DNA of 64,000 bases. Origin: a virus. Positions 32,318-45,852 of this stretch are shown here, piece after piece (positions within the stretch are counted from its first letter, which is position 1; each line of letters opens with the position of its first letter). A model generated the notes under the pieces. The model saw only the letters and a program-made list of their open reading frames with translations, was not told where the DNA came from and made no database searches. Both the position numbers and the translations under genes were made by a program. The stretch lies in the IMG/VR virus record IMGVR_UViG_3300046461_000342, positions 22,581 through 86,580 of that record; one strand, given 5' to 3'.

Positions 32318-32321
32318 CCGA

Positions 32322-33227: not shown

Positions 33228-33233
33228 GATTCT

Positions 33234-33304
33234 GCGGGTAAGATGTAACGGCTGCATGGCTGGCTTCCAACCAGTTCGAGTGGGTTCGACCCCCTCTACC
33301 CGCA
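33234..33304 (+). tRNA. tRNA-Gly(TCC)
   Basis: Acceptor GCGGGTA/TACCCGC; anticodon stem GCTGG/CCAGT with loop CTTCCAA; T loop TTCGACC. Confidence 0.92.
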
Positions 33305-33308
33305 CCGC

Positions 33309-33379
33309 GCGAGCATCGTTCAGTGGTAGGATGGCTGGTTCCCAACCAGTAGACGGGATTTCGATTATCCCTGCTCGCA
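33309..33379 (+). tRNA. tRNA-Gly(CCC)
   Basis: Acceptor GCGAGCA/TGCTCGC; anticodon stem GCTGG/CCAGT with loop TTCCCAA; T arm GGGAT-TTCGATT-ATCCC. Confidence 0.92.
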
Positions 33380-33388
33380 CTAGATAAC

Positions 33389-33459
33389 GGCGCGGTGGTC
33401 GAATGGTTAGGCAGCTGGTTGCAACCCAGCCTACGTCGGTTCGATTCCGGCCCGCGCCT
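33389..33459 (+). tRNA. tRNA-Cys(GCA)
   Basis: Acceptor GGCGCGG/CCGCGCC; anticodon stem GCTGG/CCAGC with loop TTGCAAC; T arm GTCGG-TTCGATT-CCGGC. Confidence 0.94.
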
Positions 33460-33477
33460 CCGGTGTACTGACACCAT

Positions 33478-33553
33478 GCTCCCGTAGCTCAGAGGAAGAG
33501 CGCCGAGTTTCTACCTCGGGACCGCGAGGGTTCGATTCCTTCCGGGAGCGCCA
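33478..33553 (+). tRNA. tRNA-Arg(TCT)
   Basis: Acceptor GCTCCCG/CGGGAGC; anticodon stem CCGAG/CTCGG with loop TTTCTAC; CCA encoded. Preceded by GGTGT-ACTG-ACACC, a hairpin that includes the heptamer. Confidence 0.94.
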
Positions 33554-33558
33554 CGAAT

Positions 33559-33632
33559 GCCCTCGCAGCTCGATGGACGAGCGGCGGTTTCCTAAGCCGA
33601 TGGTGAAGGTTCAATTCCTTCCGGGGGCGCCA
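33559..33632 (+). tRNA. tRNA-Arg(CCT)
   Basis: Acceptor GCCCTCG/CGGGGGC; anticodon loop TTCCTAA; T arm GAAGG-TTCAATT-CCTTC; CCA encoded. One weak pair in the anticodon stem. Confidence 0.9.
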
Positions 33633-33645
33633 AAGGAGTCTGGCC

Positions 33646-33834
33646 ATGTTGAGTGTGTTCAAGCCGAATGAGAAAGAGCACAAGGCGCTCATTGGGTTCG
33701 AGAAGCGCCACTCAAAAAAATGTCAGGGGACGATGGAGGTGACATTCACCATCACCGGCATTGGGCTCGGGGTCCACGTGCGATGCTGTTACTGCCACAA
33801 GGAGAAGAACGTCACAGACTACGATTCTTGGTGA
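33646..33834 (+). CDS. small Cys-containing protein
   Basis: 62 residues with a clear AAAGGAG site: MLSVFKPNEKEHKALIGFEK, a beta stretch EVTFTITGIGLGVHVRC and CCYCHKEKN. The C-terminal C-C-x-C-H resembles half of a zinc finger. Lies between tRNA-Arg genes. Not recognised. Confidence 0.6.
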   Translation: MLSVFKPNEKEHKALIGFEKRHSKKCQGTMEVTFTITGIGLGVHVRCCYCHKEKNVTDYDSW

Positions 33835-33837
33835 TAT

Positions 33838-33912
33838 GTCCTCGTAGCCTAGTGGATCAGGCACGACTCTCCGAAGGTCGCTACACAGGTTCGAGTCCTG
33901 TCGAGGACGCCA
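33838..33912 (+). tRNA. tRNA-Arg(CCG)
   Basis: Acceptor GTCCTCG/CGAGGAC; anticodon stem CGACT/GGTCG with loop CTCCGAA; CCA encoded. Starts 3 nt after a stop codon. Confidence 0.94.
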
Positions 33913-33913
33913 C

Positions 33914-33988
33914 GCCCGCGAAGCTCAATGGACGAGCGCTGCGCTTCGAACGCAGATGCTGAGAGTTCGAGTCTCTCCGTGGGCGCCA
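33914..33988 (+). tRNA. tRNA-Arg(TCG)
   Basis: Acceptor GCCCGCG/CGTGGGC; anticodon stem CTGCG/CGCAG with loop CTTCGAA; CCA encoded, immediately followed by the next gene's GGTGTAG. Confidence 0.94.
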
Positions 33989-33989
33989 T

Positions 33990-33996
33990 GGTGTAG
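33990..33996 (+). promoter_or_regulatory. GGTGTAG start-associated heptamer
   Basis: One nt after the tRNA-Arg CCA; 8 nt to the GTG start. Confidence 0.6.
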
Positions 33997-34004
33997 CGAC
34001 TCTT

Positions 34005-34292
34005 GTGAACCAAGCAGTCGCAGACAAGATTAGAGAGCTCGGGCACCTCATGGCGCACGCCACTGAAGCGGACCGCCATAAGCTCCCCGAGATGAGCCAC
34101 TGGTTTGAGCAGTACATGGCGAGCGCTTCGCCGGCAGAGGTCCGAGCTGTACGGGCGGAGGTCCGCAAGCTGTGGCCGCTGTGTGCCGTGCTGCTGATGC
34201 TGCAGGCTGAGTCTTCGAATCCGGAGGTCTCTGCGGCGGCGCTGCTCGAGCTCGAGAAGATGAAGTCGCTCCGAGAGGGCGGCAAGAATTAG
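34005..34292 (+). CDS. small helical hypothetical protein
   Basis: 95 residues from GTG, start set by the GGTGTAG motif. Almost entirely amphipathic helix (ADKIRELGHLMAHATEADRH, VRAVRAEVRKLWPLCAVLLML, LLELEKMKSLREGG). It may be a helical-bundle or coiled-coil adaptor. Not recognised. Confidence 0.6.
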   Translation: MNQAVADKIRELGHLMAHATEADRHKLPEMSHWFEQYMASASPAEVRAVRAEVRKLWPLCAVLLMLQAESSNPEVSAAALLELEKMKSLREGGKN

Positions 34293-34296
34293 ACAT

Positions 34297-34386
34297 GGAA
34301 GCTGAATCGGCCAAGGGCCGAGCCCGTTTCGAAAACGGTGCGGACCCCGAAAGGGGTCTGGGGATCGAGACCTCCGGCTTCCGCCA
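34297..34386 (+). tRNA. tRNA-Ser(CGA)
   Basis: Acceptor GGAAGCT/GGCTTCC; anticodon loop TTCGAAA closed by CCGT/ACGG; variable arm GACCCC-GAAA-GGGGTC; CCA encoded. Confidence 0.92.
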
Positions 34387-34387
34387 C

Positions 34388-34472
34388 GGAAGATCAACTC
34401 GCAAGGTGCGGGACCCGCCTTGAAAGCGGTGGGCAGGCGAAAGTCTGTGGGGGTCGGGACCTCGATTTTCCG
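34388..34472 (+). tRNA. tRNA-Ser(TGA)
   Basis: Acceptor GGAAGAT/ATTTTCC; anticodon stem CCGC/GCGG with loop CTTGAAA; long variable arm. The T loop TCGGGAC is atypical. Confidence 0.85.
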
Positions 34473-34481
34473 CTAGTAACT

Positions 34482-34567
34482 GGAGAGTGAATTCGCCGTG
34501 GGGCGAAGCCTGTTTGCTAAACAGTGCGGACCTGCAAGGGTCTGGAGTTCGAGCCTTCCTCTCTCCG
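34482..34567 (+). tRNA. tRNA-Ser(GCT)
   Basis: Acceptor GGAGAGT/TCTCTCC; anticodon stem CTGT/ACAG with loop TTGCTAA; variable arm GGACC-TGCAA-GGGTC; T loop TTCGAGC. Confidence 0.9.
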
Positions 34568-34604
34568 CCGAATGTCGCGAATGGTTTTGTGCGCCTGCAA
34601 GGGC

Positions 34605-34973
34605 ATGGATGCCAGACAAGCCTTTGAGAGCGCACTAGTGGTGGATCGGGTAGCTCAACGCTTCGCGAAGGAGGACGATGCGCCAGCCGATGACAAAAAG
34701 AGCGGCAAGCCGAAGACCTTCATGGAAGCTCGGAACCGTCTGCTCGATTACCTTGAATCCAAGCACTGGAAGCTTTCGAGCCGAACGCTGAAGATCCCGT
34801 ACGCGACATCGCCGGACGGCAAGCATCGTCTATGGTTCAAGACGCAGGCCGTGTATCTGTCGAGCGGCGGGGGGCGTCACGACTTCGGAGACGCACGAAC
34901 TGTTTCGTATGACACGAATGATCTGAAGAACATGTCGCCAGAGCAGTATGTGCGGCACGCGATTCGGGAGTGA
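34605..34973 (+). CDS. hypothetical protein with N-terminal RVAQRF motif
   Basis: 122 residues. The ATG giving MDARQAFESALVVDRVAQRF is chosen because upstream frames run through tRNA-Ser. The N-terminal RVAQRFAKED is another RVAxRF-type peptide. The body (FMEARNRLLDYLESKHWKLS, GKHRLWFKTQAVYLSSGGGRHDFGDARTV) looks like a small folded domain seen as uncharacterised in phages. Ends 4 nt before tRNA-Gln. Confidence 0.65.
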   Translation: MDARQAFESALVVDRVAQRFAKEDDAPADDKKSGKPKTFMEARNRLLDYLESKHWKLSSRTLKIPYATSPDGKHRLWFKTQAVYLSSGGGRHDFGDARTVSYDTNDLKNMSPEQYVRHAIRE

Positions 34974-34977
34974 TTAT

Positions 34978-35048
34978 TGGGGCGCGCCACGGGTTGGTAG
35001 CCGGGTCTCTGACACCTGTGCTCGAAAGTTCGAGTCTTTCCGCCCCAA
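34978..35048 (+). tRNA. tRNA-Gln(CTG)
   Basis: Acceptor TGGGGCG/CGCCCCA; anticodon stem CGGGT/ACCTG with loop CTCTGAC; T arm GAAAG-TTCGAGT-CTTTC. Confidence 0.9.
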
Positions 35049-35054
35049 CAAAAT

Positions 35055-35126
35055 AGGCCTGTAACTCACTGGTAGAGTGTTTCCTCGACAAGGAAAAAGC
35101 AGCGGGTTCGATCCCCGCCAGGCCTA
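35055..35126 (+). tRNA. tRNA-Val(GAC) with C33
   Basis: Acceptor AGGCCTG/CAGGCCT; anticodon stem TTTCC/GGAAA with loop TCGACAA, again C at position 33; T arm GCGGG-TTCGATC-CCCGC. Confidence 0.9.
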
Positions 35127-35130
35127 CTAT

Positions 35131-35204
35131 TCGGGGTTCGTCTAATGGTAGGACGCGAGTCTTTGGAACTCGCTGTGGGAGTTCGATCCTCTCACCCCGA
35201 ACCA
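35131..35204 (+). tRNA. tRNA-Gln(TTG)
   Basis: Acceptor TCGGGGT/ACCCCGA; anticodon stem CGAGT/ACTCG with loop CTTTGGA; CCA encoded. Confidence 0.94.
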
Positions 35205-35206
35205 GC

Positions 35207-35213
35207 GGTGTAA
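35207..35213 (+). promoter_or_regulatory. GGTGTAA start-associated heptamer
   Basis: Two nt after the tRNA-Gln CCA; 8 nt to the ATG of the SpoU-type gene. Confidence 0.6.
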
Positions 35214-35221
35214 CCAGCCGC

Positions 35222-35794
35222 ATGCTCATCGGCAAGAACGCTGCACCCGCGGGCGTCGCCCCGGCAATCGCGCTCATCGATCCACGGTTCGCCTACAACG
35301 TCGGAATGGTCGTGCGGCTCGCGAGCTGCTACGGGCTCCAGCAGGTCTGGTACACAGGCGACCGCGTCCGCATGGAGGTCGAGCGCCGCGGCAAGCTCCC
35401 ACGTGAAGAGCGGATGAAGGGCTACAAGGAAGTGGAGATCGTCCAGTTCGATCGTCCGCTTGAGCAGTTTCGCGACTGCACGCCCGTGGCTGTCGAGGTG
35501 CGTCCGAGCTCGGAGCGGCTGCAGGACTTCGAGCACCCGAAGAACGCCGTCTATGTGTTCGGCCCCGAGGACGGCTCCATCCCGCAATCGGTGCTCCGGC
35601 ATTGCCATCGCTTCGTGATCATCCCGACGCGCAACCGGTATTGCCTCAACCTTGCGACAGCTACGGCGACGATCCTATGGGACCGAGCCCTCAAGCTTGG
35701 GGAGATTCCTGAAGAGGAACCAGAGCTGCCATACGTGGAGACCGACCCCAAGGGGATGGGGCTCTACGATGATTGTGGTTGGCCGGGGTCTTGA
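35222..35794 (+). CDS. SpoU/TrmH-family RNA 2'-O-ribose methyltransferase
   Basis: 190 residues. SPOUT motifs: ALIDPRFAYNVGMVVRLASCYG (motif 1, Asn-Arg region), VYVFGPEDGSIPQSVL (motif 2, G-P-E-x-G) and CLNLATATATILWDRAL (motif 3, knot and dimer helix). The family transfers methyl from SAM to a ribose 2'-OH in tRNA or rRNA. Its place at the end of a tRNA cluster suggests it modifies the phage tRNAs. The stop overlaps the next ATG (TGATG). Confidence 0.88.
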   Translation: MLIGKNAAPAGVAPAIALIDPRFAYNVGMVVRLASCYGLQQVWYTGDRVRMEVERRGKLPREERMKGYKEVEIVQFDRPLEQFRDCTPVAVEVRPSSERLQDFEHPKNAVYVFGPEDGSIPQSVLRHCHRFVIIPTRNRYCLNLATATATILWDRALKLGEIPEEEPELPYVETDPKGMGLYDDCGWPGS

Positions 35795-36093
35795 TGGTCG
35801 AAACCACCTGGACGGATCTATTTTCGATGCTTGAGGATGTTCGCAAGCACGTGCTGGCTGGCGAGCACGTCGTGTCATGCAACGATCCTGTGAGTCGTAT
35901 GCTTGGCATGCGAAGCTCTGAGAACGTCTGGTGGATCAGCCTGGTTTCGGTGAAGAGTGCTTGCCCTAGCTGTCACCGGGAAGAGCTTCTCTTTGAACAG
36001 TTCCGGACTCGGGAAGGTCGTGAGCAGCTCTTGCAGGCGTTCGCAGTGGGGCGCCCACGCAAGACGATCTGGCAGCACCTCAAAGAGGTGTAG
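35794..36093 (+). CDS. small hypothetical protein
   Basis: 99 residues, start overlapping the stop of the methyltransferase gene, so probably translationally coupled. MVETTWTDLFSMLEDVRKHV is helical, followed by WWISLVSVKSACPSCHREEL with CPSC, possibly a metal site. Ends in GGTGTAG where TAG is the stop. Function not recognised. Confidence 0.6.
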   Translation: MVETTWTDLFSMLEDVRKHVLAGEHVVSCNDPVSRMLGMRSSENVWWISLVSVKSACPSCHREELLFEQFRTREGREQLLQAFAVGRPRKTIWQHLKEV

Positions 36094-36186
36094 TGATGGT
36101 CTCGAATTCCTATTCAGTTGCCAGCTCGATGTCTATTTGGGCACGCGTCGGCCCACTCTTATTTGGCGCGCAGATCGGATGGTAAT

Positions 36187-38058
36187 ATGGCAAACGAAAA
36201 CCTAGGCCCGGCAGAGCGCATTCTCGAGACTGTGATTGGGTATTCGGATCACTGTGTCCACAATCGCGCGGGTATTGTGATCCCGGACGTCGGCTCTGTG
36301 ATCGGGGTAAAGTGGCTTCCGGTCACCCACGTCGTTGAAGACGGGGATAAGGTCGTCTACGAGCTCCGCAAGGTTGGGAAGAAGACCGCCAAGGTTAAGC
36401 TTGGCAAGCTCAAGGATGACGGTCGCATCAAGGATGTGAATCGGGTCGTTGGCCGCTACCAGCCGGCAGGGATCTTCGCAGACGTGGCGGTTTGGTTGTA
36501 TCGCCAGGTTGCTGAGGTCTGGAAACTCGACAACGAGTTTGCGGCTCGCTGGGCGTCGCACGAGTTCTTGCTATTGCAGGAGCGCCGTGACCTCAAGGTG
36601 ATCATGGCGGCATTTCTCTTGGTTCAGTCTCGCAAGGGCGACCCGGTGATCGATGCTGGCAAAGTCGCCTTCTTTGATGACGATCTACGCGACGTCGGCG
36701 AGGCGATGTTGCTCTTGGGCGGCAAGGACTTTAAGGATGTAAAGACGTTCAACCCGAAGCTCTTGCTCCGGGTGCACGACGTGTTGATGCTGCCAGGCGT
36801 GGCGGAGATCAACCGCGAGCTCGGCTTTGGGAGCTCGGCGCGCAATCCATTCTTGGGTCGTTGGACTAAGGCTGTAGAGAAGTGGTTGCTTTACCGTGAG
36901 GAAAACCCAAAGCTGCTCGACGGGCTGGTGAAGGCTGGCTTCCGTCGTACGGTGATGGAGCTCGCGCGTCGCATTCACTATCGGCCGGCGACGCCTCGAT
37001 TCTTTGAGGCTCTGCGCTGGAAGCAGGTGCAGGCCCAGGACGGCCGTCGCTCGATTGCGATTGGCCAGGCGGTGCAGGCGGCTGAATCTTGGGAAGGCTT
37101 CACCGAGCAACAGATTTGTGAGGCGATTGTTCGCACCAGGCCAAGCTTCAAGCGCGTGGTCGGGCTTCTACCGAAGGGTCAGGGGCTCACTCGTGCGATC
37201 GTCGCTGCGGCAATCGAGGTTGGGTCGATGTCTGACAAGGATTTGATCATCGCCACTCCGACGCTTGAGGAGCTCGGGCTCTTGGAGGTCCAGGAGGTTC
37301 GAGGGCGTTGGGAGAGGGCGATCCAGGCTGCTGAGGATATGCGTGCTGCGAACATCGCGACTCGCGTCAAGTCTTTGGCCACTCAAGATAAGCTACACGA
37401 AGCGGCGGATAACGCGGTCAAGCTAGCTGTGGCTGAGGTCGTCAAGGGTCTCCGCATCTATGTGATCGTGGATATCTCGGGATCAATGAACAACGCGATC
37501 GTTCAGGCCAAGCAGTATATCGCAAAGTTCCTGCAGGCGTTCCCACCGGAGCAGCTGCATGTCTCGGTGTTCAGCACCTCGGGTCGTGAGGTCAAGATCA
37601 CTCACGCATCAGCAGCTGGCGTTGAGAACGCGTTCCGCGGCATTACAGCGGGCGGCGGCACATTGCACTCCCAGGGCGTGCGGGTTCTTAGCAAGTACAA
37701 GCCAACGGCAGATGAGGATGCGCTGATGATTTTCGTCGGCGATGAAGAAGAGCACTCAACATTCGAAGTGGCCGTGCGCGAGTCTGGTATCAACCCGGTT
37801 GCGTTCGGTCTACTCAAGGTGCGTGAGTGCGTGTCGTCTAGTGTGCGCGACACTGCAGCAAGACTGGGGATCCCCTGCTTCATGATCGAACCGCAGACCT
37901 TTTCCGACGTCTATGCTATCCCTCGTGTTCTGCGTGCGTTGATCTCAGCTACTCCAGTGGGTAAGACTCACGGCGGCCCGGTCTTTGTTCCGCGGGTGTC
38001 CCTGGTAGACACGATCTTGAAGACTAAGCTGCTGGTGAAGCCCACGTGGGCGGCATGA
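36187..38058 (+). CDS. Ro60/TROVE-like protein with C-terminal VWA domain
   Basis: 623 residues from MANENLGPAERILE. A long alpha-helical region (about 130-400; for example KAVEKWLLYREENPKLLDGL, ELARRIHYRP, IGQAVQAAESWEGF) resembles the HEAT-repeat ring of Ro60/Rsr. It precedes a VWA domain with a MIDAS DISGSM at residues 429-434 and LMIFVGDEEEH further on. Ro60 rings bind misfolded RNAs and Y RNAs and can guide an exoribonuclease. The order helical ring then VWA fits Ro60; the extra beta-type N-terminus (about 1-110) is unusual. A plain VWA protein is the alternative. It heads the Ubl cluster. Confidence 0.6.
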   Translation: MANENLGPAERILETVIGYSDHCVHNRAGIVIPDVGSVIGVKWLPVTHVVEDGDKVVYELRKVGKKTAKVKLGKLKDDGRIKDVNRVVGRYQPAGIFADVAVWLYRQVAEVWKLDNEFAARWASHEFLLLQERRDLKVIMAAFLLVQSRKGDPVIDAGKVAFFDDDLRDVGEAMLLLGGKDFKDVKTFNPKLLLRVHDVLMLPGVAEINRELGFGSSARNPFLGRWTKAVEKWLLYREENPKLLDGLVKAGFRRTVMELARRIHYRPATPRFFEALRWKQVQAQDGRRSIAIGQAVQAAESWEGFTEQQICEAIVRTRPSFKRVVGLLPKGQGLTRAIVAAAIEVGSMSDKDLIIATPTLEELGLLEVQEVRGRWERAIQAAEDMRAANIATRVKSLATQDKLHEAADNAVKLAVAEVVKGLRIYVIVDISGSMNNAIVQAKQYIAKFLQAFPPEQLHVSVFSTSGREVKITHASAAGVENAFRGITAGGGTLHSQGVRVLSKYKPTADEDALMIFVGDEEEHSTFEVAVRESGINPVAFGLLKVRECVSSSVRDTAARLGIPCFMIEPQTFSDVYAIPRVLRALISATPVGKTHGGPVFVPRVSLVDTILKTKLLVKPTWAA

Positions 38059-38070
38059 CCGGAGACAATC

Positions 38071-39030
38071 ATGGGCTGGAGAGACTTGCTTGAGACAGAG
38101 GGCAGCTCAATCGTGCTGCCTTGGGTTGGTGGTAGGTCTCTCTGTTCCGGCGTTCGAGTTTGGTCTATCGAGGGGGTTCTTCCCAAGGAACACGCTTGGG
38201 TCAAGTTCCAGTTGACTGGCCGTAAAGCGAGGGTGATGGAGGTCTGTTACCCGGAGCCGGACAGCTTGTCTCAGCGGGTCGTCGGGTACTTGGTGGGCGA
38301 CCGAATCATGGCCGCCGATGTTCGGGTGGACCCTCATCCTAAAGTCATCGCCGCTTATTCCGAGCGCGTGCATTTGATCGACCCTGGCTTGGATCGGTTT
38401 GTTCGGATCTCAGCGGGTCGCGCCCATGAGGGTGGGCCGCTGGTCTTCATTCAACAGGAGATGCCTCTTGGGCCGGATGTGGAGGTGCGAGCGGCCTATT
38501 ATGATCGCAAGGCAACCGTCGATGACGTCCCTGGGGTCACGCCTGCGTTGGACGCTGCTTTTCGCATGGCGCGCTGGCAGCGTATCGAGGCCGACCGCAG
38601 GCGAGCGGAGGTAGAGATCCAGCTCCGTCGAGAGGAAGAAGCGAGAGATCAAGAGGCCCGTCGTCGGGATCTTCTCTCGAGGCTGGGTGATGGTGCATCG
38701 CGTCGGGAGATGGCTGGTGTCGATTTCGAGGCGGCGGCGCGAGCTGCACTGACGGTTGGCGGCGTGACGTATCTGGAGTACCGGAGGTCGCATCGTCCGG
38801 AAGAGATGGTGGTGCGGTTTCGGCTCGACGGTCGTCGCTTTGAATGCACCTGCGATCGCCGCAGTCTGCGGATTCTCGATGCTGGTATCTGTCTGACAGC
38901 TCACGGGGACGACGATGATTTTGAGCGTGGTACCAAAGGTGATTCATTCTTCACTCTCGAGAGTTTGCCGGCAGTCATTAGGCAAGCGGACCGGGAGGGG
39001 AAGCTCGTTGTGTTCCGCCACGTCGATTAA
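38071..39030 (+). CDS. uncharacterised protein of the Ubl cluster
   Basis: 319 residues, 12 nt after the Ro-like gene. An N-terminal beta-rich half (SIVLPWVGGRSLCSGVRVW, AWVKFQLTGRKARVMEVCY), a charged coiled coil (about 165-215, ADRRRAEVEIQLRREEEARD) and a C-terminal alpha/beta part with VVRFRLDGRRFECTCDRRSL and CLTAHGDDDDFERG. No E2-type HPN motif or RING cysteines are evident, so a conjugating-enzyme role cannot be claimed. Its tight coupling to JAB, Ubl and E1 genes makes it a candidate partner or substrate. Confidence 0.6.
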   Translation: MGWRDLLETEGSSIVLPWVGGRSLCSGVRVWSIEGVLPKEHAWVKFQLTGRKARVMEVCYPEPDSLSQRVVGYLVGDRIMAADVRVDPHPKVIAAYSERVHLIDPGLDRFVRISAGRAHEGGPLVFIQQEMPLGPDVEVRAAYYDRKATVDDVPGVTPALDAAFRMARWQRIEADRRRAEVEIQLRREEEARDQEARRRDLLSRLGDGASRREMAGVDFEAAARAALTVGGVTYLEYRRSHRPEEMVVRFRLDGRRFECTCDRRSLRILDAGICLTAHGDDDDFERGTKGDSFFTLESLPAVIRQADREGKLVVFRHVD

Positions 39031-39037
39031 CGATTTC

Positions 39038-39044
39038 GGTGTAA
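39038..39044 (+). promoter_or_regulatory. GGTGTAA heptamer upstream of JAB gene
   Basis: Same motif, here 9 nt before ATG (39054) or 3 nt before an alternative GTG (39048). Confidence 0.45.
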
Positions 39045-39053
39045 TAGGTGAAG

Positions 39054-39428
39054 ATGAGCCTCGAAGCCGGCGTACTAGTCAATCTCGATAGCGAGCCCCT
39101 TTTTTGGCATCTCCCCGAGGGCCGCGCAGTCGGATCGCTGCCGGATAGTCGGGACCTGTGGACCATCATCTGGGATCACAGAGACGAGGTGCTGGGCTTC
39201 GCGCATAGTCACCCAGGTTCGGGTGTGCCTGTACCGTCAGATGAGGATTTGACGACATTTGCGGCGGTTGAGTCGGCTCTTGGTAAGCGGCTCGTGTGGT
39301 GGGTCACCAGCCGAGACGAGTCTGTGGAGTTGTTTTGGTCGGGGCCTGGCAAGCTTTCGTACGGCACGGTGCCAGTGATGTACGAGCCCGAATGGATGTC
39401 GGAGCTGCGCACGCTCTCTAGATTTTGA
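39054..39428 (+). CDS. JAB/JAMM-family metallopeptidase (deubiquitinase-like)
   Basis: 124 residues. GFAHSHPGSGVPVPSDEDL (residues 48-66) is the JAMM signature: His51 and His53, Pro, then Ser62 and Asp65 as zinc and active-site residues; an upstream Glu would be the general base. The family cleaves isopeptide or C-terminal peptide bonds of ubiquitin-like proteins, or acts on Cys adducts. The adjacent Ubl gene is the obvious substrate. An in-frame GTG two codons upstream is an alternative start. Size fits a minimal JAB domain. Confidence 0.85.
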   Translation: MSLEAGVLVNLDSEPLFWHLPEGRAVGSLPDSRDLWTIIWDHRDEVLGFAHSHPGSGVPVPSDEDLTTFAAVESALGKRLVWWVTSRDESVELFWSGPGKLSYGTVPVMYEPEWMSELRTLSRF

Positions 39429-39439
39429 TTGGAGGATCG

Positions 39440-39703
39440 ATGGAAGACTTTGAAGCTCGTGTCAACGTTACCTATGCTGGGGTCAACGCGGACCTCCCGG
39501 ATCCTGTGCCTTTCGACACGACGGATTCTGTAGTCAAAGGTCTTGTTGAGGAGGCGATCCGGACGGGCAGCCTTCCTGGCATCCCTCTGGATAAGGATGT
39601 CGAGCTCAGCGATTACATGGTGGATCGGTTCAGCGCTTCTGCTGAGCGAGGGCATCACGTCATGTTTTTGAGACCCAAGACGCCTTTTGGTGCCGGGGCC
39701 TGA
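39440..39703 (+). CDS. ubiquitin-like (beta-grasp) protein
   Basis: 87 residues with a GGAGG site. The pattern fits a beta-grasp fold: strand ARVNVTYAGV, strand DPVPFDTT, helix VVKGLVEEAIRTG, then SDYMVDRF and a final strand HHVMFLRPKTPFGAGA with a glycine-containing tail. Trimming by the adjacent JAB enzyme could expose a C-terminal Gly for adenylation by the E1-like protein. Sequence identity to ubiquitin is not detectable by eye; the call rests on pattern, size and neighbours. Confidence 0.65.
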   Translation: MEDFEARVNVTYAGVNADLPDPVPFDTTDSVVKGLVEEAIRTGSLPGIPLDKDVELSDYMVDRFSASAERGHHVMFLRPKTPFGAGA

Positions 39704-39876
39704 TGTATTTCCTAGGTTGGGAAGGCTGGCAGAGGGTGCACAGATATAGCTGTCTAGCGTGTGGCGCCATAGTAGAGAGTCCGCACGGGTGGGGCGGTGG
39801 TCCACCGCCTAAATGCCCCGAGGGTTGCGTGCTTGATCCGGAGACTAGGACATGGACAAGGCGAAAGACAGAATGA
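39703..39876 (+). CDS. small zinc-ribbon-like protein
   Basis: 57 residues; ATG overlaps the Ubl stop (TGATG). CLACG and CPEGC make a CxxC...CxxxC pair within YSCLACGAIVESPHGW...KCPEGCVLD, consistent with one zinc. It ends inside an ATGA overlap with the E1-like gene. In this context it could be a RING-like or adaptor element, but it is too short for a RING. Confidence 0.6.
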   Translation: MYFLGWEGWQRVHRYSCLACGAIVESPHGWGGGPPPKCPEGCVLDPETRTWTRRKTE

Positions 39877-40442
39877 GAAAGGTCACGGTCATCGGAGTGG
39901 GAGCCCTTGGCTCCCATTTCATTTTGTGCGCACGGAACTTCGCAGAGCTGACAGTCATCGATGATGGTCGTGTGAAGTCGAAGAGCCCTCTGTCACAGTT
40001 CCATAGCAAGACGCAGGTTGATCGCAGCAAGGCACCGGCTCTCCAGCAGACCATGCAGTTCTTGTTTGGGGTTAAGCTCGTGGCAGTGCCGCACCGGCTC
40101 ACCCTGTACAATCAACAGAAGCTGCTTGGGGATGCGGACCTCTTGGTCGATTGCTTGGACAACGCGCCTTCACGTGAGCTCGTTCAGTCCTTTGCTCGCT
40201 CTAGGGGCACCCCGTGTCTGCATGGTGCGTTGGCAGCGAATGGGCAATATGGACGCGTCGTCTGGGATGAGTACTTCGTGATCGATGCCGCGGCTCCGGG
40301 GGCGGCCACCTGCGAGGATGGGGAGCACCTGCCTTTCATCTCTCTAGTGTCATCCCTCTTGTCTCGCGCTGCTCAAGAGTTTTTGAGGGACGGCCGTAAG
40401 ATTGGCTTCGAGGTCCATCCTACTGGTGTAACCAGGACCTAG
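39873..40442 (+). CDS. ThiF/E1-like adenylating enzyme
   Basis: 189 residues from the ATGA overlap; an earlier ATG at 39852 is possible. VTVIGVGALGSHF is the Rossmann GxGxxG nucleotide site, LTVIDDGRV ends strand 2 with the acidic residue, a K-rich stretch follows, then LVDCLDNAPSR matches the E1/ThiF D-x-x-D-N metal and substrate region. Candidate catalytic Cys: ATCEDGEHLPF. E1/ThiF enzymes adenylate the Ubl C-terminus. At this size it is a minimal domain, shorter than eukaryotic E1. Confidence 0.85.
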   Translation: MRKVTVIGVGALGSHFILCARNFAELTVIDDGRVKSKSPLSQFHSKTQVDRSKAPALQQTMQFLFGVKLVAVPHRLTLYNQQKLLGDADLLVDCLDNAPSRELVQSFARSRGTPCLHGALAANGQYGRVVWDEYFVIDAAAPGAATCEDGEHLPFISLVSSLLSRAAQEFLRDGRKIGFEVHPTGVTRT

Positions 40443-40453
40443 GAGGGATTGAC

Positions 40454-40945
40454 ATGGCGTGGACCTGGAATGACCCAGAGCGCAGCCCGCATCCGCGTCT
40501 CAAGGAAGCTGCCTTGGACGTGATCACTAAGGTGCGGGTGATGTTGGAGAACAAGCGCGCAATCATCGAGTTCATGTTGGGGGTCGAGGCGATGATGGGC
40601 CTCACCGATTACCACAAGGGTCACGTGAGCTCTATGCACCAGACGATCGCTGATCTAGAGGCGATGCTCGGGGGCAAGTGGGTCGTGACGGAATCCAGGC
40701 TCATCGATGCTTGGAACGGCGCGGATGGGCAGGAGCGGAGGCCGGGTGAGGGCGAGATGGGCTTCACGCTTTCGTGGACGGCGATCGGCGTCGGGGACGG
40801 GGAGACCAGCTTCTACATGGGCAAGGATGGGCTCATTCATTGCGACAATGAGAGCATGAATCGAGACTTCTTTGCCCAGGTGCTGGCGAAGTTCTTGGAG
40901 GGGGTCAAAATGGACCATCAAGAAAGTCCCGATCCTGGGGCGTGA
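40454..40945 (+). CDS. uncharacterised protein, end of Ubl cluster
   Basis: 163 residues with a strong AGGAGGG site 11 nt after the E1 stop. The N-terminal half is helical (LKEAALDVITKVRVMLENKR, HQTIADLEAMLGGKW), the C-terminal half beta (GEMGFTLSWTAIGVGDGETSFYM). One Cys only (LIHCDNESM). A divergent E2-like fold cannot be excluded, but no HPN/Cys signature is visible. Probably co-transcribed with the cluster. Confidence 0.55.
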   Translation: MAWTWNDPERSPHPRLKEAALDVITKVRVMLENKRAIIEFMLGVEAMMGLTDYHKGHVSSMHQTIADLEAMLGGKWVVTESRLIDAWNGADGQERRPGEGEMGFTLSWTAIGVGDGETSFYMGKDGLIHCDNESMNRDFFAQVLAKFLEGVKMDHQESPDPGA

Positions 40946-40971
40946 GATTGTTCTGGTGTCACGGCTAGGGT

Positions 40972-41187
40972 GTGGGTAAAGACCTCACCGCAACAGCTAT
41001 TCCTTCCGCGCTGGCATATGTTTGCCTGAGCTGCGGCAGGCTCGCGGTCGAGAAGGCCGGGCTTGGTTGGTGCGCTCACGGCGCCGTGCAGCTCCCGTTG
41101 AGCGCCCTCGAGGTTGGCGCTGCTGGACGGGTAGTCGCGATCAGCCGCCAGGCAATCTTGAAGCTCAAACTTTCACGTCTGAATTAG
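40972..41187 (+). CDS. small zinc-binding-type protein
   Basis: 71 residues from GTG: YVCLSCGRLAVEKAGLGWCAHGAVQLPL has CxxC and CxH spaced like a one-zinc knuckle. GGTGTCA (one base off the heptamer) lies at 40955. Function unknown. Confidence 0.5.
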   Translation: MGKDLTATAIPSALAYVCLSCGRLAVEKAGLGWCAHGAVQLPLSALEVGAAGRVVAISRQAILKLKLSRLN

Positions 41188-41214
41188 CCTGGCATCTTAT
41201 GTTAGGCAAACTAC

Positions 41215-41302
41215 GCTCGGGTGGTGGAATTTGGTAGACACGGCAGGGTCTAGTTGGCCCGGCTGCGGAAACGCATGCAGGTTCGAACTCCTGCCCCGAG
41301 TA
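41215..41302 (+). tRNA. class II tRNA, anticodon uncertain (AGT or TAG)
   Basis: Acceptor GCTCGGG/CCCGAGT; D arm GGAATTTGGTAGA as in Leu tRNAs; variable arm TGCG-GAAA-CGCA; T stem GCAGG/CCTGC around an 8-nt loop. The anticodon arm is imperfect: stem GGGT/GCCC with loop CTAGTTG gives AGT, which would be Thr on a Leu-like body; other foldings give TAG. Confidence 0.7.
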
Positions 41303-41368
41303 CCGACACGTTCATTGACACAACAGAGAGGCGCCAGATGAAGCGGTTAAGACGCAGGCGGTAATTGC

Positions 41369-41905
41369 ATGGAACATCACACACTTCTACTAACGTCTTG
41401 GATGCAACCTCACAGAATCGTCGATTGGCGGACGGCTATCTGCAAGCTAGTCGAGGGTGAGATCGAGGTGCTCGTGAATCACGACGCAACCGTGTCGTCT
41501 CCGAGTGTCACGTTTTACATCCCATCCGTGGCGCGAATCAAGACAGAGGTCCCGCATAACAAGAAGGGTGTGAAGTTCTCGCGCGAGAACGTGCTGTCAC
41601 GCGACAACTATCAGTGCCAGTACTGCGGGCACCGCTTTCCACGCCGTCAGCTGAACTACGACCATGTGATCCCGAGAGCGCAGGGCGGCAAGACCGTCTG
41701 GACCAATGTGGTTTCCAGCTGTATTCCGTGCAACTCTTGGAAGGGTGGTCGCACGCCAAAGCAGGCCGGGATGCAGTTACTCAAGGTCCCGGAGCGGCCG
41801 AAGTGGCTGCCGCTGAAGATGCCGGCGGTCCCGCTCGCGAAGGTCCCGGAGGCTTGGGTGTTCTATCTCCAGGGGATTCCGCACCTTGAGTTCGCATCCG
41901 GCTGA
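41369..41905 (+). CDS. HNH endonuclease
   Basis: 178 residues. The N-terminus (LLTSWMQPHRIVDWRTAICKLVEGEIEVL) is the usual leader of the bacterial HNH family also seen in phages. The nuclease core is CQYCGHRFPRRQLNYDHVIP, GGKTVWTNVVSSCIPCNSWKGGRTP, with zinc Cys pairs and catalytic His. Free-standing, next to a tRNA, consistent with a mobile or homing nuclease. Confidence 0.88.
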   Translation: MEHHTLLLTSWMQPHRIVDWRTAICKLVEGEIEVLVNHDATVSSPSVTFYIPSVARIKTEVPHNKKGVKFSRENVLSRDNYQCQYCGHRFPRRQLNYDHVIPRAQGGKTVWTNVVSSCIPCNSWKGGRTPKQAGMQLLKVPERPKWLPLKMPAVPLAKVPEAWVFYLQGIPHLEFASG

Positions 41906-41967
41906 TAGACTCGGCGGGCCACCGGCCTCAACAGGTGGCATTTCATTTTATCGGAGCAGCTGTATCG

Positions 41968-42213
41968 ATGCCACACGCGTATGATCACCGGACGGCGTAT
42001 TGGGATCCGTCGGTCTTAGGGATTACTCCGGATGAGTGGGCCAGGATGGACGCTGAGGAGCGCCAGACTTATCTGGTCGACTCTCTGCACCGGGCCGGGG
42101 ATTTGGCGCATGCCCTCGTGAAGGCTTTCTCCGAAGACCTGAGTGCGTCTGAGCGGCAGTCCATTTTGCAGGCATCGAAAGTGCTGCAGGCAGTGGCGCG
42201 CTCCAGGAGTTGA
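41968..42213 (+). CDS. small hypothetical protein
   Basis: 81 residues from the ATG of MPHAYDHRTAYWD; an in-frame ATG at 41935 would add 11 residues. Acidic and helical (DEWARMDAEERQTYLVDSLH, SASERQSILQASKVLQAV). Ends 28 nt before the VWA gene. Not recognised. Confidence 0.5.
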   Translation: MPHAYDHRTAYWDPSVLGITPDEWARMDAEERQTYLVDSLHRAGDLAHALVKAFSEDLSASERQSILQASKVLQAVARSRS

Positions 42214-42226
42214 GTTTTGGCGTCTC

Positions 42227-42233
42227 GGTGTAG
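42227..42233 (+). promoter_or_regulatory. GGTGTAG start-associated heptamer
   Basis: 8 nt to the ATG of the large VWA protein. Confidence 0.6.
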
Positions 42234-42241
42234 GGCCGGAG

Positions 42242-44602
42242 ATGCCGAACACCGTTTCGTACCAAATATCCAAGGACCTATTTTTAGTCCATCAGAGGCA
42301 CGCAGCCGACCAAGCACCGGTAGTCGCAGTCGAGCTCCCGACAAACCACTTTGCGGTCATCGATTGCTCGGGCTCGATGTACTCGGACCTTCCACGCATC
42401 CGTGAGCAGCTGAAGCGAAAGCTTCCCAAGCTGCTGAAGGAGCAGGACACGATTTCGCTGATCTGGTTCAGCGGTCGGGGTGAATTCGGGACCCTCTTGG
42501 AGGCGGAGCCGGTAGCAACGCTCACGGACCTCAAGGCCGTGGAGCACGCGATCGATCGCTGGCTCAAGCCATGCGGTCTGACGGGATTCACGGAGCCGAT
42601 TCAAGAAGCGGGTAGGGTTGTGGAGCGCGTCGCGAAGGCTCGCCCAGGTAGTGTCAGCAGCCTTCTTTTCCTATCTGATGGCTGTGACAACCAGGGCACC
42701 CGGGCCAGCATTCTCAAGGCGATGGAAGAAGCCGCCAACGGTTTCCAGTGCACCACGGTTGTGGAGTACGGTTACTACGCGGACCGCAATCTCTTGGCCG
42801 CTATGGCTGAGAAGGCGGGCGGATCTCATATCTTTGCAGAGGACTTCAATCGTTACGAGCCGACCTTCGAGGCGACGATGCAGAAGCGGCCGGTGGGCGC
42901 GCCCCGGGTCGAGGTGGCGATTGACGGCGATCCGATCCAGGGCTTTGTGTTTGCTCTGCAGGACGGCGACTTGGTGACGTACTCGGTCGAGGGAGGGAAG
43001 GTTCGAGTGCCCGAGAACCTCTCGGGCTTCTGGTTCGTCTCCCCGGCACAGGTCGGCGTCCCGAGCTCGATGGCGTTTGCTGACAGCGTTGCCTATGAAG
43101 CCGCGCAGCCGACGCCGCAGCTCGCAGACAACATCTGCGCAGCCTTTGCCGCCGTCTCGCTCTACGCCGTGAGGATGAAGCCCAACATCGTGTACCCGCT
43201 GCTCAAGGTGCTCGGTGATGTCTCGCTCGTTGAGGAGTTTGCGAATTGCTTCGGCAAGCAGCGGTACTCGGATTTCCAGGAGCACGCCAAGAAAGCGGCA
43301 TTCGGTCAGGGTGCATTCAGCAAGGGCTACGATCCCAATCGGGTCCCAGCGGACGACGCCTTCACGGTCCTGGATTTGCTGCAACTACTGTCGAGCGACG
43401 ACGCCAATCGCGTGTTGCTCGATGACAATCGCTTCCGATACAGCCGCATTGGCCGCGGTCGTGTCGACAGCAGCGACCAACTCACGGAGGCGGAGCAGGA
43501 GGAGATTCGCGTGCTCACCGAGGAAATGGGGCGGATCAAGAAGGCGTCTCGCATCGCTGAGATAACCGCTCGCATCACGGAGATCACTGCAAGCAAGCCG
43601 ACGGCCTTGAAGTTCGAGCCGGATCCCGCGCCCACGGGCTATCCGGTGTCCTCGTTGACCTTCAATGAAGATCGCCCGAACGTGTCGTTTCTCATCCGCA
43701 AGCCAGGGACGGTCGACCTGAGCGAACGACTGTCGGACACCTTGTTCACTGTGCCGGACACGTTCAATACGCAGGTCTTTCGCAACTACACGGTGATCAA
43801 GGATGGGCTGGTCAATATTGATCAGTTGCCGGTCAATCTGACCAAGGAGAGCTACGCGGCTTTGCGCGAGAAGCTCGGTGCCAAGCTCGATCAGGTTTTC
43901 CAGGTCGATTACTACAGCGAGGGTGCGGTCGGGGCCATCGGTACGCTGAATCTGCGCGAGCTCCCGGTGATCAACCGCAAGATGGTCAGGGACGTGAGTG
44001 CGAAGGATTTCTTCGGGCTCCAATACCAACTGCTCGCCGCGCAAGCAGAGCAGAAAGTATACAACGGGTACATCAAAGAACTGGCCCCTAAGGAGCGCTC
44101 CGAGGGCATCAAGGGTCTATACGGCGAGCAAGCGGCGCAGTGGCTCAAGGAGCAGGGGATCACAGACGGCGGGTTCGCACCAAAGAGTGTTCAGGCGGAG
44201 AGCACTGACTTCTATATGGGTAAGGAGCTCAAGGTCTCGCTCAAGGGCTACTCCAAGCTTCCGAGTCTGAAGGAAGCACAGACCGCGATAGCAAAGGGCA
44301 AGATCAACGGGCCGACGGCTTTGATGGAGCCAACTATCAGGGAGGTCGATGAGCTTCTCGTCAAGGCCAATGGCAGAAATAATACCGTTCGGGCGTGGCT
44401 GGACATTCAGGCGGACGCCGCTAAGGCTAAGGTCCGTGACTTGATCTTCAAGATTGCTCAGACGACCTTCGTTCTGGTCGTTGGTCAAATCTGGTTCAAG
44501 GAGTTCGCTACCCTTGATGAAACAGTTTATCAGCTCGCACTGGATGGCGGAGGAACCATCCAGTGCGAAGTGGAGATGAGGGAAATTCAGATCAAGATTT
44601 GA
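42242..44602 (+). CDS. large VWA-domain protein
   Basis: 786 residues. The N-terminal VWA domain has MIDAS residues DCSGSM at 41-46, GLTGFTEPI (the Thr loop) and LLFLSDGCDN (the distal Asp), so it is probably metal-binding. The middle has a helical linker with EAEQEEIRVLTEEMGRIKKAS, and the C-terminal 300 residues are unrecognised alpha/beta. VWA domains usually nucleate protein complexes. It is one of three VWA proteins within 13 kb, all different outside the VWA domain. The start is fixed by the heptamer. Confidence 0.85.
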   Translation: MPNTVSYQISKDLFLVHQRHAADQAPVVAVELPTNHFAVIDCSGSMYSDLPRIREQLKRKLPKLLKEQDTISLIWFSGRGEFGTLLEAEPVATLTDLKAVEHAIDRWLKPCGLTGFTEPIQEAGRVVERVAKARPGSVSSLLFLSDGCDNQGTRASILKAMEEAANGFQCTTVVEYGYYADRNLLAAMAEKAGGSHIFAEDFNRYEPTFEATMQKRPVGAPRVEVAIDGDPIQGFVFALQDGDLVTYSVEGGKVRVPENLSGFWFVSPAQVGVPSSMAFADSVAYEAAQPTPQLADNICAAFAAVSLYAVRMKPNIVYPLLKVLGDVSLVEEFANCFGKQRYSDFQEHAKKAAFGQGAFSKGYDPNRVPADDAFTVLDLLQLLSSDDANRVLLDDNRFRYSRIGRGRVDSSDQLTEAEQEEIRVLTEEMGRIKKASRIAEITARITEITASKPTALKFEPDPAPTGYPVSSLTFNEDRPNVSFLIRKPGTVDLSERLSDTLFTVPDTFNTQVFRNYTVIKDGLVNIDQLPVNLTKESYAALREKLGAKLDQVFQVDYYSEGAVGAIGTLNLRELPVINRKMVRDVSAKDFFGLQYQLLAAQAEQKVYNGYIKELAPKERSEGIKGLYGEQAAQWLKEQGITDGGFAPKSVQAESTDFYMGKELKVSLKGYSKLPSLKEAQTAIAKGKINGPTALMEPTIREVDELLVKANGRNNTVRAWLDIQADAAKAKVRDLIFKIAQTTFVLVVGQIWFKEFATLDETVYQLALDGGGTIQCEVEMREIQIKI

Positions 44603-45333
44603 GACCGTGGTTTGTATACACCCTACATGACCCAGAACTTCCTCAAGAGGTTCGTTATGTAGGGTGGACCACCCGTCCTAAGCGTCGCTTGTGGGCTCAC
44701 TTGCAGGACGCTAAGACTGGGAAGGATCGGACGTATTGCGGGAACTGGAAGAGAACCGTGTTAGCACGTGGTCTCGAACCGGCAATGCAAGTCATAGAGC
44801 AAGGCGTCGGGGATGGTTGGAAACCAGTCGAGGTCCATTGGATCAAGCACTACAGGGACCTTGGGCATCCTATTACGAATCTGACAAACGGCGGTGACGG
44901 GAGCGGCAAGAAGCTCACTCCAGCCCAGAAGAAGAAAATAGGGGATGCCAATAGGGGGAAAGTCAGGTCGGCTGAGACTCGTGCGCGATTGAGCGCTGCC
45001 CACAAAGGCTACAAACATACGCCAGAGCAAACAGCCAAGATTGCTGCGGCCAACCGCGGTCGCAAACAATCAGAGGAAGTGCTACGTCGGAGACGTGGAC
45101 GAAAAATGTCCTCCGAAGCGGTGGCGAAATCCGCTGAGGCTAGGCGTGGACAGCAGCGCTCGCCGGAGGTGCGAGCCAAGATGAGAGCTTCGCATCTTGG
45201 AAAACGTTTGGCTCCAGAACATGCCGCTAACATCGCTAAGGCTCACTTAGGACTCAAGCGGACGGAAGACCAACGCCGTCGAATCTCGGACGCTATTCGG
45301 GCGTGGCATGTTGCTCGAAAAGATGCCGCGTAG
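44599..45333 (+). CDS. GIY-YIG endonuclease with NUMOD3-type repeats
   Basis: 244 residues from a TTG start overlapping the VWA stop; no ATG or GTG is available closer to the domain. WFVYTLHD and VRYVGWTTRPKRRLWAH are the GIY-YIG core with the catalytic Arg, and LTNLTNGGDG closes it. Then come repeated basic motifs (GRKQSEEV, GRKMSSEA, GQQRSPEV, GKRLAPEH, GLKRTEDQ), typical DNA-binding NUMOD3 repeats of homing nucleases. Probably an inserted mobile gene. Confidence 0.85.
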   Translation: MRPWFVYTLHDPELPQEVRYVGWTTRPKRRLWAHLQDAKTGKDRTYCGNWKRTVLARGLEPAMQVIEQGVGDGWKPVEVHWIKHYRDLGHPITNLTNGGDGSGKKLTPAQKKKIGDANRGKVRSAETRARLSAAHKGYKHTPEQTAKIAAANRGRKQSEEVLRRRRGRKMSSEAVAKSAEARRGQQRSPEVRAKMRASHLGKRLAPEHAANIAKAHLGLKRTEDQRRRISDAIRAWHVARKDAA

Positions 45334-45537
45334 TGCTGTTACTTTACTTGTCGTGCGTGTGTGTATGCCGGAACCAATGATGGTCGGCTCTCGACGATAT
45401 TGAGCCCCGACCCCTGAGGCTCGATTCACCGTTCATTGCGGGCATTCGAGCAACTCAGGGGCGGGGTAGCTGCGTCCTTTAGTTTAGACGGGACCTGCTT
45501 ACACCATGGCACACAAGTATCTTAAATGGTGTAGTCT
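45334..45537. other. intergenic region with a long structured hairpin
   Basis: No gene. 45405-45418 pairs with 45454-45466 (CCCCGACCCCTGAG with CTCAGGGGCGGGG, one mismatch), enclosing a second stem GCTCGA/TCGAGC with a 21-nt loop. Close to the next ATG, ACACCAT and ATGGTGT form another inverted repeat that includes a GGTGTAG heptamer at 45528. It may be a ncRNA, a terminator (CCTTTAGTTT follows) or a translational control element. Confidence 0.45.
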
Positions 45538-45810
45538 ATGCACGACGCTTTTTCAGATTTGGTGGAAATTCGGCAACAGATAGTCACTTTAGAAATCCAT
45601 CGCGAACGACTCGACGAGGCCATCTTGGTGCAGGCTGGTCTTTACGAGACGGCGTGTCGGGAGCGATGGTCAGAGACAGTTCGCCTCTCCTTATTTGGCA
45701 CGTGGATGGCTCTTGAGGGTGAATGGCGCGTAACGCAGGACACCATCAACCGCAAGCGGGACGAGGAAACGGAGTGTTCGATCGCTACCGCTGACCAGCG
45801 GGGTTGGTGA
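45538..45810 (+). CDS. small helical hypothetical protein
   Basis: 90 residues (DLVEIRQQIVTLEIHRERLDE, CRERWSETVRLSLFGTWMAL, TQDTINRKRDEETEC), predicted all helix. The heptamer is only 3 nt before ATG here, and the ATG lies beside an inverted repeat, suggesting structured mRNA at the start. Not recognised. Confidence 0.5.
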   Translation: MHDAFSDLVEIRQQIVTLEIHRERLDEAILVQAGLYETACRERWSETVRLSLFGTWMALEGEWRVTQDTINRKRDEETECSIATADQRGW

Positions 45811-45852
45811 CTGCGGGCCGGATCTAAGATCAGCTTGTAGCCTGGCTCTGGC

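Follow-up and report, generated by a model that had tools for sequence, protein, structure and literature searches.

A fixed gene set resembling a ubiquitin-like tagging pathway in many very large bacterial viruses

Operons that combine genes for a ubiquitin-like protein (Ubl), a JAB protease, and an E1-like enzyme have been described in bacteria, and row 6d of Iyer et al. 2006 presents an operon of Ubl, JAB, E1-like, and E2-like genes (PMC1779556). The bacterial Ro60 protein, Rsr, goes with the tRNA-like RNA YrlA and with RtcB (PMC7790460), and in Anabaena the repressor TrcR acts on rtcB, on a tRNA array, and on further genes of translation (PMC10272220). A TROVE protein is known from a few jumbo phages, in a paper whose accessible text makes no mention of Ubl, JAB, or ThiF (PMC7824862); ubiquitin, TROVE, and ThiF do not occur in the accessible main text of PMC7162821. 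Here, we analyzed a stretch of 64,000 nucleotides (the window), which forms positions 22,581 to 86,580 of an 86,580-base virus record (IMGVR_UViG_3300046461_000342), and within it a cluster encoding a von Willebrand A (vWA) protein (A), a second protein (B), a JAB protease, a Ubl, and an E1/ThiF-type enzyme. The A-B-JAB-Ubl-E1 cluster was not found in the open-licence literature, including the accessible text of PMC7824862, PMC7162821, PMC1779556, PMC7159879, and PMC12660748.

A single fixed gene set of this kind, which looks suited to putting a Ubl tag on and taking it off again, is present in many very large bacterial viruses. The core of the cluster is A, B, JAB, Ubl, and E1/ThiF, and a zinc-ribbon protein and a 163-amino-acid protein are accessories. 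Counts below refer to 73 segments, made up of 70 contigs from five viral-contig scans, the window, KX853510 (Virus Rctr197k), and LR756511. The core genes of the window are as follows.

36187..38058, + strand: A, vWA protein; VWA_2 26.9 bits, just below the cut-off of 27; in 70/73 segments
38071..39030, + strand: B, 319 amino acids; candidate E2 or target adaptor; in 71/73 segments
39048..39428, + strand: JAB/JAMM metalloprotease; Pfam Prok-JAB 28.6 bits (cut-off 25); in 71/73 segments
39440..39703, + strand: Ubl precursor, core ending RPKTPFG with the extension AGA; alternative TTG start at 39425; in 66/73 segments by the phage-type model
39873..40442, + strand: minimal E1/MoeB/ThiF-type enzyme; ThiF 64.4 bits (cut-off 28.1); in 70/73 segments

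A viral contig of 255 kb has a near-identical cluster, and the viral contigs with relatives reach 618 kb. The first-pass annotation of the window had proposed a Ubl conjugation and deconjugation cluster and had said beforehand that a lack of conserved gene order in related phages, or a predicted Ubl structure without a beta-grasp fold, would refute it. The order A-B-JAB-Ubl-E1 on one strand held in 62 of the 62 phage segments having all five genes. The 11 incomplete segments comprise two with E1 only, three without an E1 match, one without an A match, and five from divergent phages that keep A-B-JAB-E1 in order and have a related Ubl upstream of A, on which the phage-type Ubl model is silent; a Ubl is therefore present in 71 of 71 B-bearing segments. 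Repeated sequences were removed before Ubl tails and JAB and E1 motifs were counted. For the clustering of neighboring open reading frames, eight near-duplicate contigs were taken out, leaving 63 loci, and clusters present in at least 10 loci are reported. These clusters consisted of the five core genes, their shadow frames, and HNH-type genes, with no additional fixed partner among them. Membership in the core was rejected for the ribbon, which occupies the window's position in only 4/73 segments, and for the 163-amino-acid protein (3/73); both are common to close relatives only. The range first assigned to the cluster, 38071-40945, fits the five-gene set in part: A (start 36187) lies outside it and yet belongs to the core, whereas two of the genes inside it do not. 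The reading frames and motifs given for the noted genes agreed with ours. Compared with contig 3300046477_000634, the ratios of nonsynonymous to synonymous substitution rates (dN/dS) were 0.08 for A, 0.05 for B, 0.11 for JAB, 0.14 for Ubl, and 0.07 for E1, with 0.11 for the alignable part of the 163-amino-acid protein and 0.33 for the ribbon. These ratios are rough because dS is high (1.1 to 2.7); they suggest purifying selection on the cluster genes and, together with the fixed gene order, that the cluster is more than a chance arrangement.

Both enzymes stood up as first described. The JAMM residues H, H, P, S, and D are intact in 63/63 distinct JAB sequences, with the N-terminal Glu in 62/63. 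The E1, a stand-alone protein of ~190 amino acids (a second in-frame ATG lies at 39852), has MoeB as its best match in a profile comparison with solved proteins (E = 3e-15), followed by Uba4, ThiF, and the SUMO E1. Its conserved Cys, at the position of the Cys in the TC motif of MoeB, is kept in 62 of 63 distinct sequences. JAB also matches a PHROG tail family (E = 2.2e-4), and Ubl-JAB pairs are known from tail clusters (PMC1779556). Formally, then, the Ubl and JAB could act in tail assembly like the lambda-type TAPI/TAPK pair, with the E1-like protein put to some other use. We consider such a role in virion assembly very improbable, given that E1 is present in 70 of 73 segments, that no tail family is among the clusters found in at least 10 of the 63 loci, and that the same module occurs without JAB in cyanobacterial genomes and plasmids (see below).

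A modification pathway is also what the C terminus of the Ubl suggests. Of 58 distinct phage Ubls, 57 have a core that terminates in Gly, most commonly as RPKTPFG (43 proteins); the glycine-containing tail pointed out in the window (PFGAGA) follows this pattern. Among the 57, the residue preceding the Gly is always F, L, or Y, and none has a C-terminal Gly-Gly; the Gly is followed by no residue in 9, by one in 24, by 2 to 14 in 16, and by more than 14 in 8. These tails are unconserved and reach 61 residues. Such an arrangement is expected of a precursor processed at a C-terminal Gly. A ribbon-like CxxC pattern occurs in four of the tails, and such tails may be the origin of the separate ribbon gene beside the window Ubl. 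In the divergent phages, the Ubl ends exactly at the Gly with no tail (5/5). Since JAB is kept in these phages, it probably also removes attached Ubl, in addition to maturing the precursor.

The Ubl (39440-39703) had no Pfam match at E ≤ 1 and no NCBIfam match. An AlphaFold2 model built from 35 sequences has a mean predicted local distance difference test score (pLDDT) of 88.2 and a beta-beta-alpha-beta-beta arrangement, with strands at 5-12, 15-18, 59-64, and 73-79 around a helix at 29-42 and a loose end. Structural matches to this model, from Foldseek and fold comparison, were mostly beta-grasp domains (the UBL domains of FAF1, Dsk2, and Ddi1, the N-terminal domains of PI3K, PB1, a ubiquitin variant, and protein G), none of them a strong match. 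A beta-grasp fold, as first proposed, is likely on the basis of the model, and the second refuting outcome named in the first-pass annotation did not arise. At two loci, open reading frames that by eye resemble LAGLIDADG homing endonucleases lie between Ubl and E1 (L004:3943-4959 and L005:4192-5001), and the one in L004 overlaps the 3' end of the Ubl gene. With JAB, Ubl, and E1 bearing such tails and motifs, a Ubl pathway is the most economical account of the cluster.

Protein B is the candidate carrier or target among the flanking proteins. A model from 48 sequences (mean pLDDT 86.0, predicted template modeling score 0.60) has two OB-like domains, a coiled coil at 158-203, and a last domain of the form alpha-beta4-GICL-alpha. 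The Cys of GICL (C274) is present in 50/50 sequences and in 25/25 last domains, including those of cyanobacteria, and the motif recalls an E2 active site. For the OB-like domains, the Mpa proteasomal ATPase gave a match in its inter-domain region with a Z score of 5.0, a value (about 5) that may reflect a common arrangement only. The fold list for B also holds DsbC (Z = 4.6), YpmB (Z = 4.4), an RWD-bearing kinetochore entry (Z = 4.2), and a chain of a UFL1/DDRGK1-UFC1 entry (E = 1.8); ubiquitin E2s are not near the top. In searches for further E2 sequences, Prok-E2_D was found in 2/146 genomes and Prok-E2_B in 1/194, too few for a fair profile test, and Prok-E2_A was found in 0/194, where the control was silent too.

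Gene A leads the cluster, as the first-pass annotation had it, and a vWA domain is borne out: the five metal ion-dependent adhesion site residues (D, S, S, T, and D) are invariant in 17 relatives. The further likeness to Ro60 is weakly supported. The helical N-terminal part of A weakly resembles the solved TROVE protein 9kop in a profile comparison (E = 0.008), and one relative of A matches a solved TROVE protein at E = 0.006. In Virus Rctr197k (KX853510), gene A (L008:3212-5161) is annotated just as a misc_feature, "similar to conserved hypothetical protein."

Relatives of the module occur outside phages. When bacterial and archaeal genomes were scanned with divergent B proteins, the best 80 of 157 relatives were all cyanobacterial by title; these, together with two plasmid stretches, form a set of 82 loci. 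As the loci were picked by the presence of B, its occurrence in 82/82 is uninformative; E1 is found in 71, A in 54, and JAB in none, absence here meaning no match to the phage-type JAB model at E ≤ 0.01 inside the stretch examined. Among 244 sampled cyanobacterial genomes, B is present in 17. In 45 of the 82 loci, a 66-amino-acid relative of the Ubl lies upstream of A and ends exactly in RPEA(V/I)YG; it aligns with the divergent-phage and window Ubls, and the C-terminal Gly is kept in 45/45 cyanobacterial as well as 5/5 divergent-phage proteins. The tail-less cyanobacterial Ubl coincides with the lack of a phage-type JAB match. Direct alignment of phage and cyanobacterial Ubls by hhalign is weak (probability 16, E = 0.0016, last 26 columns only), and the link between them is drawn from the divergent-phage intermediates, which a joint Ubl model finds at E = 1e-9 to 2e-4, and from the joint alignment. 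A further Ubl is present on a Dolichospermum plasmid, past the analyzed stretch. A conserved protein of ~240 amino acids with no Pfam match above cut-off lies between Ubl and A at L207:6044-6760 and in 37 other cyanobacterial loci, and on a Kovacikia plasmid A and B are separated by a gene for a poly(A) polymerase/CCA-adding-type protein (L158:3240-3914).

Many of the phage clusters sit amid tRNA genes. ARAGORN called 37 tRNAs in the window and at least 10 in 19 of the 35 distinct phage loci scanned, one of which has 41 in 21 kb; two of the first 25 loci scanned have zero. Transfer-messenger RNA genes lie near the cluster in three phage loci (L021:17517-17877, L042:15744-16101, and L054:1034-1411). 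The tRNA setting, and the nearness of the E1 to MoeB, Uba4, and ThiF, would suit a sulfur carrier comparable to Urm1/TtuB or ThiS/MoaD, in which the E1-activated Ubl forms a thiocarboxylate and gives its sulfur to tRNA while JAB only matures the carrier. This alternative is improbable in our view: clusters present in at least 10 loci, named by eye and by known families, include no sulfurtransferase, desulfurase, or tRNA thiolase, the Ubl tail has a single Gly rather than Gly-Gly, and JAB is kept in all five divergent phages, whose Ubl needs no trimming.

A protein-tagging role linked to RNA or translation is suggested by the small RNA genes of the cyanobacterial relatives. Among the 45 Ubl-bearing loci, 36 have a tRNA-like gene within 300 nucleotides upstream of the Ubl and 41 have one between Ubl and A, and an unusual 5' end of the TACATACT type is shared, by eye, by 32 of the 36 upstream genes and most of the 41. 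Nineteen such genes were sampled, including four of divergent phages; they have 13 consensus pairs, 10 of which show compensatory changes. The anticodons drift, cta, tta, and tca being among them (some stop-reading), and Rfam scores the genes as tRNA in the ten cyanobacterial loci submitted. The best match of a model derived from these genes lies 3' of E1 in L014, where ARAGORN calls no tRNA; this match is only suggestive, because the model also matches ordinary tRNAs. No Y-RNA family was found by Rfam in these ten loci or in window positions 30000-46000. The isolated tRNA-like RNAs may be Y-RNA-like partners. The sequence TGTAGTA occurs within 300 nucleotides upstream of a tRNA-like gene or Ubl in 19/44 cyanobacterial loci compared with 72/880 random stretches, an enrichment that is a lead only because the loci are related to one another.

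The second RNA is an isolated, ~56-nucleotide mimic of part of 23S rRNA, found in 43 of the 82 cyanobacterial loci. It corresponds to positions 1093-1148 of the Rfam large-subunit rRNA (LSU) model, which we take to be the GTPase-associated center. In 28 of the 43 loci it lies within 250 nucleotides upstream of the B frame. The pattern was absent from one shuffle per cyanobacterial locus and from 156 (partly overlapping) phage loci. Examples of the two RNAs are listed here.

L166:4938-5012 and 6621-6695: tRNA-like genes flanking Ubl and A
L189:5846-5920 and 7315-7387: tRNA-like genes flanking Ubl and A
L169:9801-9856 and L158:4973-5028: GTPase-center mimics, cyanobacterial loci
L038:15131-15176 and L054:4018-4069: GTPase-center mimics, phage loci

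A third alternative would make these RNA neighbors incidental. Related systems conjugate Ubls against phages, and a phage could tag host or rival-phage proteins for interference or defense, in the manner of Cap2/Cap3 of the cyclic-oligonucleotide-based antiphage signaling system (CBASS) or of Bil. The E1 partly matches the E1-E2 models of PADLOC (39.6 bits), and JAB weakly matches a PADLOC JAB model (E = 0.014). However, neither A nor B matched a PADLOC model at E ≤ 1, the module shows tight conservation across widely diverged phages and also in cyanobacteria, and tRNA-like RNAs adjoin most of the Ubl-bearing cyanobacterial loci. We regard this explanation as unlikely.

Instead, we favor a phage-encoded system of Ubl modification with a role connected to RNA or translation, to which we assign a probability of about 0.55. 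With its E1, terminal Gly, and JAMM enzyme, the set would work like a prokaryotic Ubl system. Judging from conservation, JAB would cleave the precursor form of the Ubl behind the Gly of ...PFG, a step dispensable for Ubls that have no encoded tail. The family and motifs of the ThiF-like E1 suggest that it adenylates this Gly and loads the Ubl onto its conserved Cys. We hypothesize that B then accepts the Ubl on the invariant Cys of GICL or presents the target, while its OB domains touch RNA, and that the tag goes to the vWA/Ro60-like A or to a protein that binds A, tRNA, or rRNA, from which JAB may take the tag off again. That the pathway works, as the first-pass annotation supposed, is a prediction supported by comparison: the gene order is fixed, and the Gly, the variable stretch after it, and the JAMM and E1 motifs are consistent with it. 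Because the relatives have tRNA-like RNAs and a mimic of the 23S GTPase center, the system may sense or act on the state of tRNA and the ribosome, and phages may use it to guard or steer translation around their own tRNA arrays. The Ro60-like A, the OB-fold B, the tRNA-like RNAs, the GTPase-center mimic, and the RtcB-type ligase of the window together suggest a part in quality control of RNA or translation. A fuller version, which we put forward tentatively and think somewhat doubtful, is that the pathway is built round translation-mimicking RNAs held by A and by B, the latter with an unrecognized E2-type Cys domain; tagging would report or resolve stalled translation or RNA damage, the arrangement would be common to huge phages and cyanobacterial tRNA-array elements, and phages would protect or steer their own translation with it.

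Several observations weigh against this interpretation. B was not recognizable as an E2 by sequence: a PDB profile search with B or its last domain and a Pfam search with 25 members found no E2, B did not align with three PRTRC B proteins in hhalign, and matches of the last domain to cystatin-like domains are at least as good as those to E2-type ones. Of the flanking proteins first suggested as E2 or target, B is a candidate through its invariant Cys but not through homology; the 163-amino-acid protein, at the cluster in only 3/73 segments, is not core. The Ubl has weak fold matches (Foldseek E of 0.02 at best; highest Z, 4.7, none reaching 5), so its beta-grasp fold, though likely, is not proven, and one Ubl breaks the Gly rule by ending RPKTRFA. 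In E1, the Arg of the MoeB NLQRQ motif is missing, by eye, in 21/21 aligned relatives, and the window protein has Ser where Asn is kept in 60/63. There is no Pfam TROVE match to the window A at E ≤ 1 or to three relatives at E ≤ 10. Fewer than 10 tRNA calls were made in 16 of the 35 scanned phage loci; thus, the array is not obligatory. Finally, the GTPase-center mimic was not found in the window, and among 52 phage loci a covariance model found it in just two, L038 and L054. Both copies are missing a portion of the second hairpin; Rfam placed the L054 mimic below cut-off, did not detect that of L038, and found a full rRNA gene in neither locus.

The window also contains several genes around the core, the first two of which are accessories and the last two of uncertain belonging.

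39703..39876, + strand: small zinc-ribbon protein; start overlaps the Ubl stop; in 4/73 segments
40454..40945, + strand: 163-amino-acid protein; unmatched in Pfam, PHROG, and NCBIfam at E ≤ 1
41215..41304, + strand: odd tRNA-like gene downstream of E1; ARAGORN tRNA-Arg(tct)
41369..41905, + strand: HNH endonuclease-type gene; HNH_5 57.9 bits, above cut-off

The ribbon gene is present as first described, with Pfam matches that are all below cut-off. The tRNA-like gene at 41215-41304 had no Rfam tRNA match at E ≤ 1 and no match to the tRNA-like model (R1) at E ≤ 0.01; that it is the equivalent of the cyanobacterial tRNA-like partner is not proven. HNH-type open reading frames occur in 35/73 segments at variable positions. 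About 1.7 kb 3' of E1 lies a second vWA protein (819 amino acids, 42143-44602, PHROG family 2426), and the window further encodes an RtcB-type RNA ligase (49426-50877), a GroEL-type chaperonin (51725-53359), and a SpoU-type methylase (35222-35794). Two large adjoining proteins (23609-27367, 1253 amino acids, and 27529-29484, 652 amino acids) match the same set of PHROG families and are therefore probably paralogues.

If the favored interpretation is true, a Ubl pathway with modifier, E1, deconjugase, and possible carrier would be stably established in many huge-phage genomes, and one of their few conserved operon-like units would gain a biochemical job open to checking. Bacterial Ubl tagging would be tied to small RNAs mimicking tRNA and the factor-binding site of the ribosome, and an old role of such tagging in RNA or translation quality control would become testable.

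Among the systems introduced at the outset, the operon of row 6d, which we take to be PRTRC, resembles the cluster in having Ubl, JAB, and E1 as separate genes, accompanied by a conserved-Cys partner and carried on mobile elements, and PRTRC plasmids are among the plasmid matches of the window E1 (24% identity). In contrast, the window E1 scores 28.2 bits against a PRTRC_ThiF cut-off of 144.75, the Ubl lacks an NCBIfam match, B does not align with PRTRC B, and a vWA/TROVE-like gene leads the cluster; the model scores for ThiF and Ubl set the cluster apart from PRTRC. The FtsH-ternary vWA-MoxR conflict systems also combine vWA with Ubl, E1, and JAB, as far as the accessible text describes them (Kaur et al. 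2020, PMC7159879), whereas MoxR, FtsH, RING, and EAD are absent from the neighbor clusters present in at least 10 of our 63 loci, the Ubl is free-standing, and A has a TROVE-like part. With Rsr, the cluster shares a vWA protein of weak TROVE similarity, tRNA-like RNAs (in cyanobacteria and divergent phages), and an RtcB elsewhere in the window; it differs in having no Pfam TROVE or Rfam Y-RNA match and in coupling A to Ubl, E1, and B. A long tRNA array, and TrcR-like TGTAGTA sequences at the cyanobacterial loci, recall the TrcR regulon and trn array of Anabaena PCC 7120, but the words TROVE and ThiF are absent from the accessible main text of PMC10272220. Unlike Cap2 of CBASS, the window E1 is unfused, and PADLOC E1-E2 models match it over the E1 part alone (e.g., 276-409 of 489). 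The tail TAPI/TAPK pair goes with linked tail genes, whereas no tail family is among the clusters in at least 10 of the 63 loci, and ThiS, MoaD, and Urm1 differ by their C-terminal Gly-Gly. Modifiers of the ATG8/UFM1 type have a single Gly after an aromatic or small residue and then a disposable tail. The Ubl described here likewise has a single Gly followed by a disposable-type tail; no sequence or significant structural link between the two was found, and the protease here is a JAMM enzyme. We rate the cluster as a variant of the prokaryotic Ubl systems, distinct from PRTRC and from the tail TAPI/TAPK pair, with a credible chance that something stranger lies in its RNA partners.

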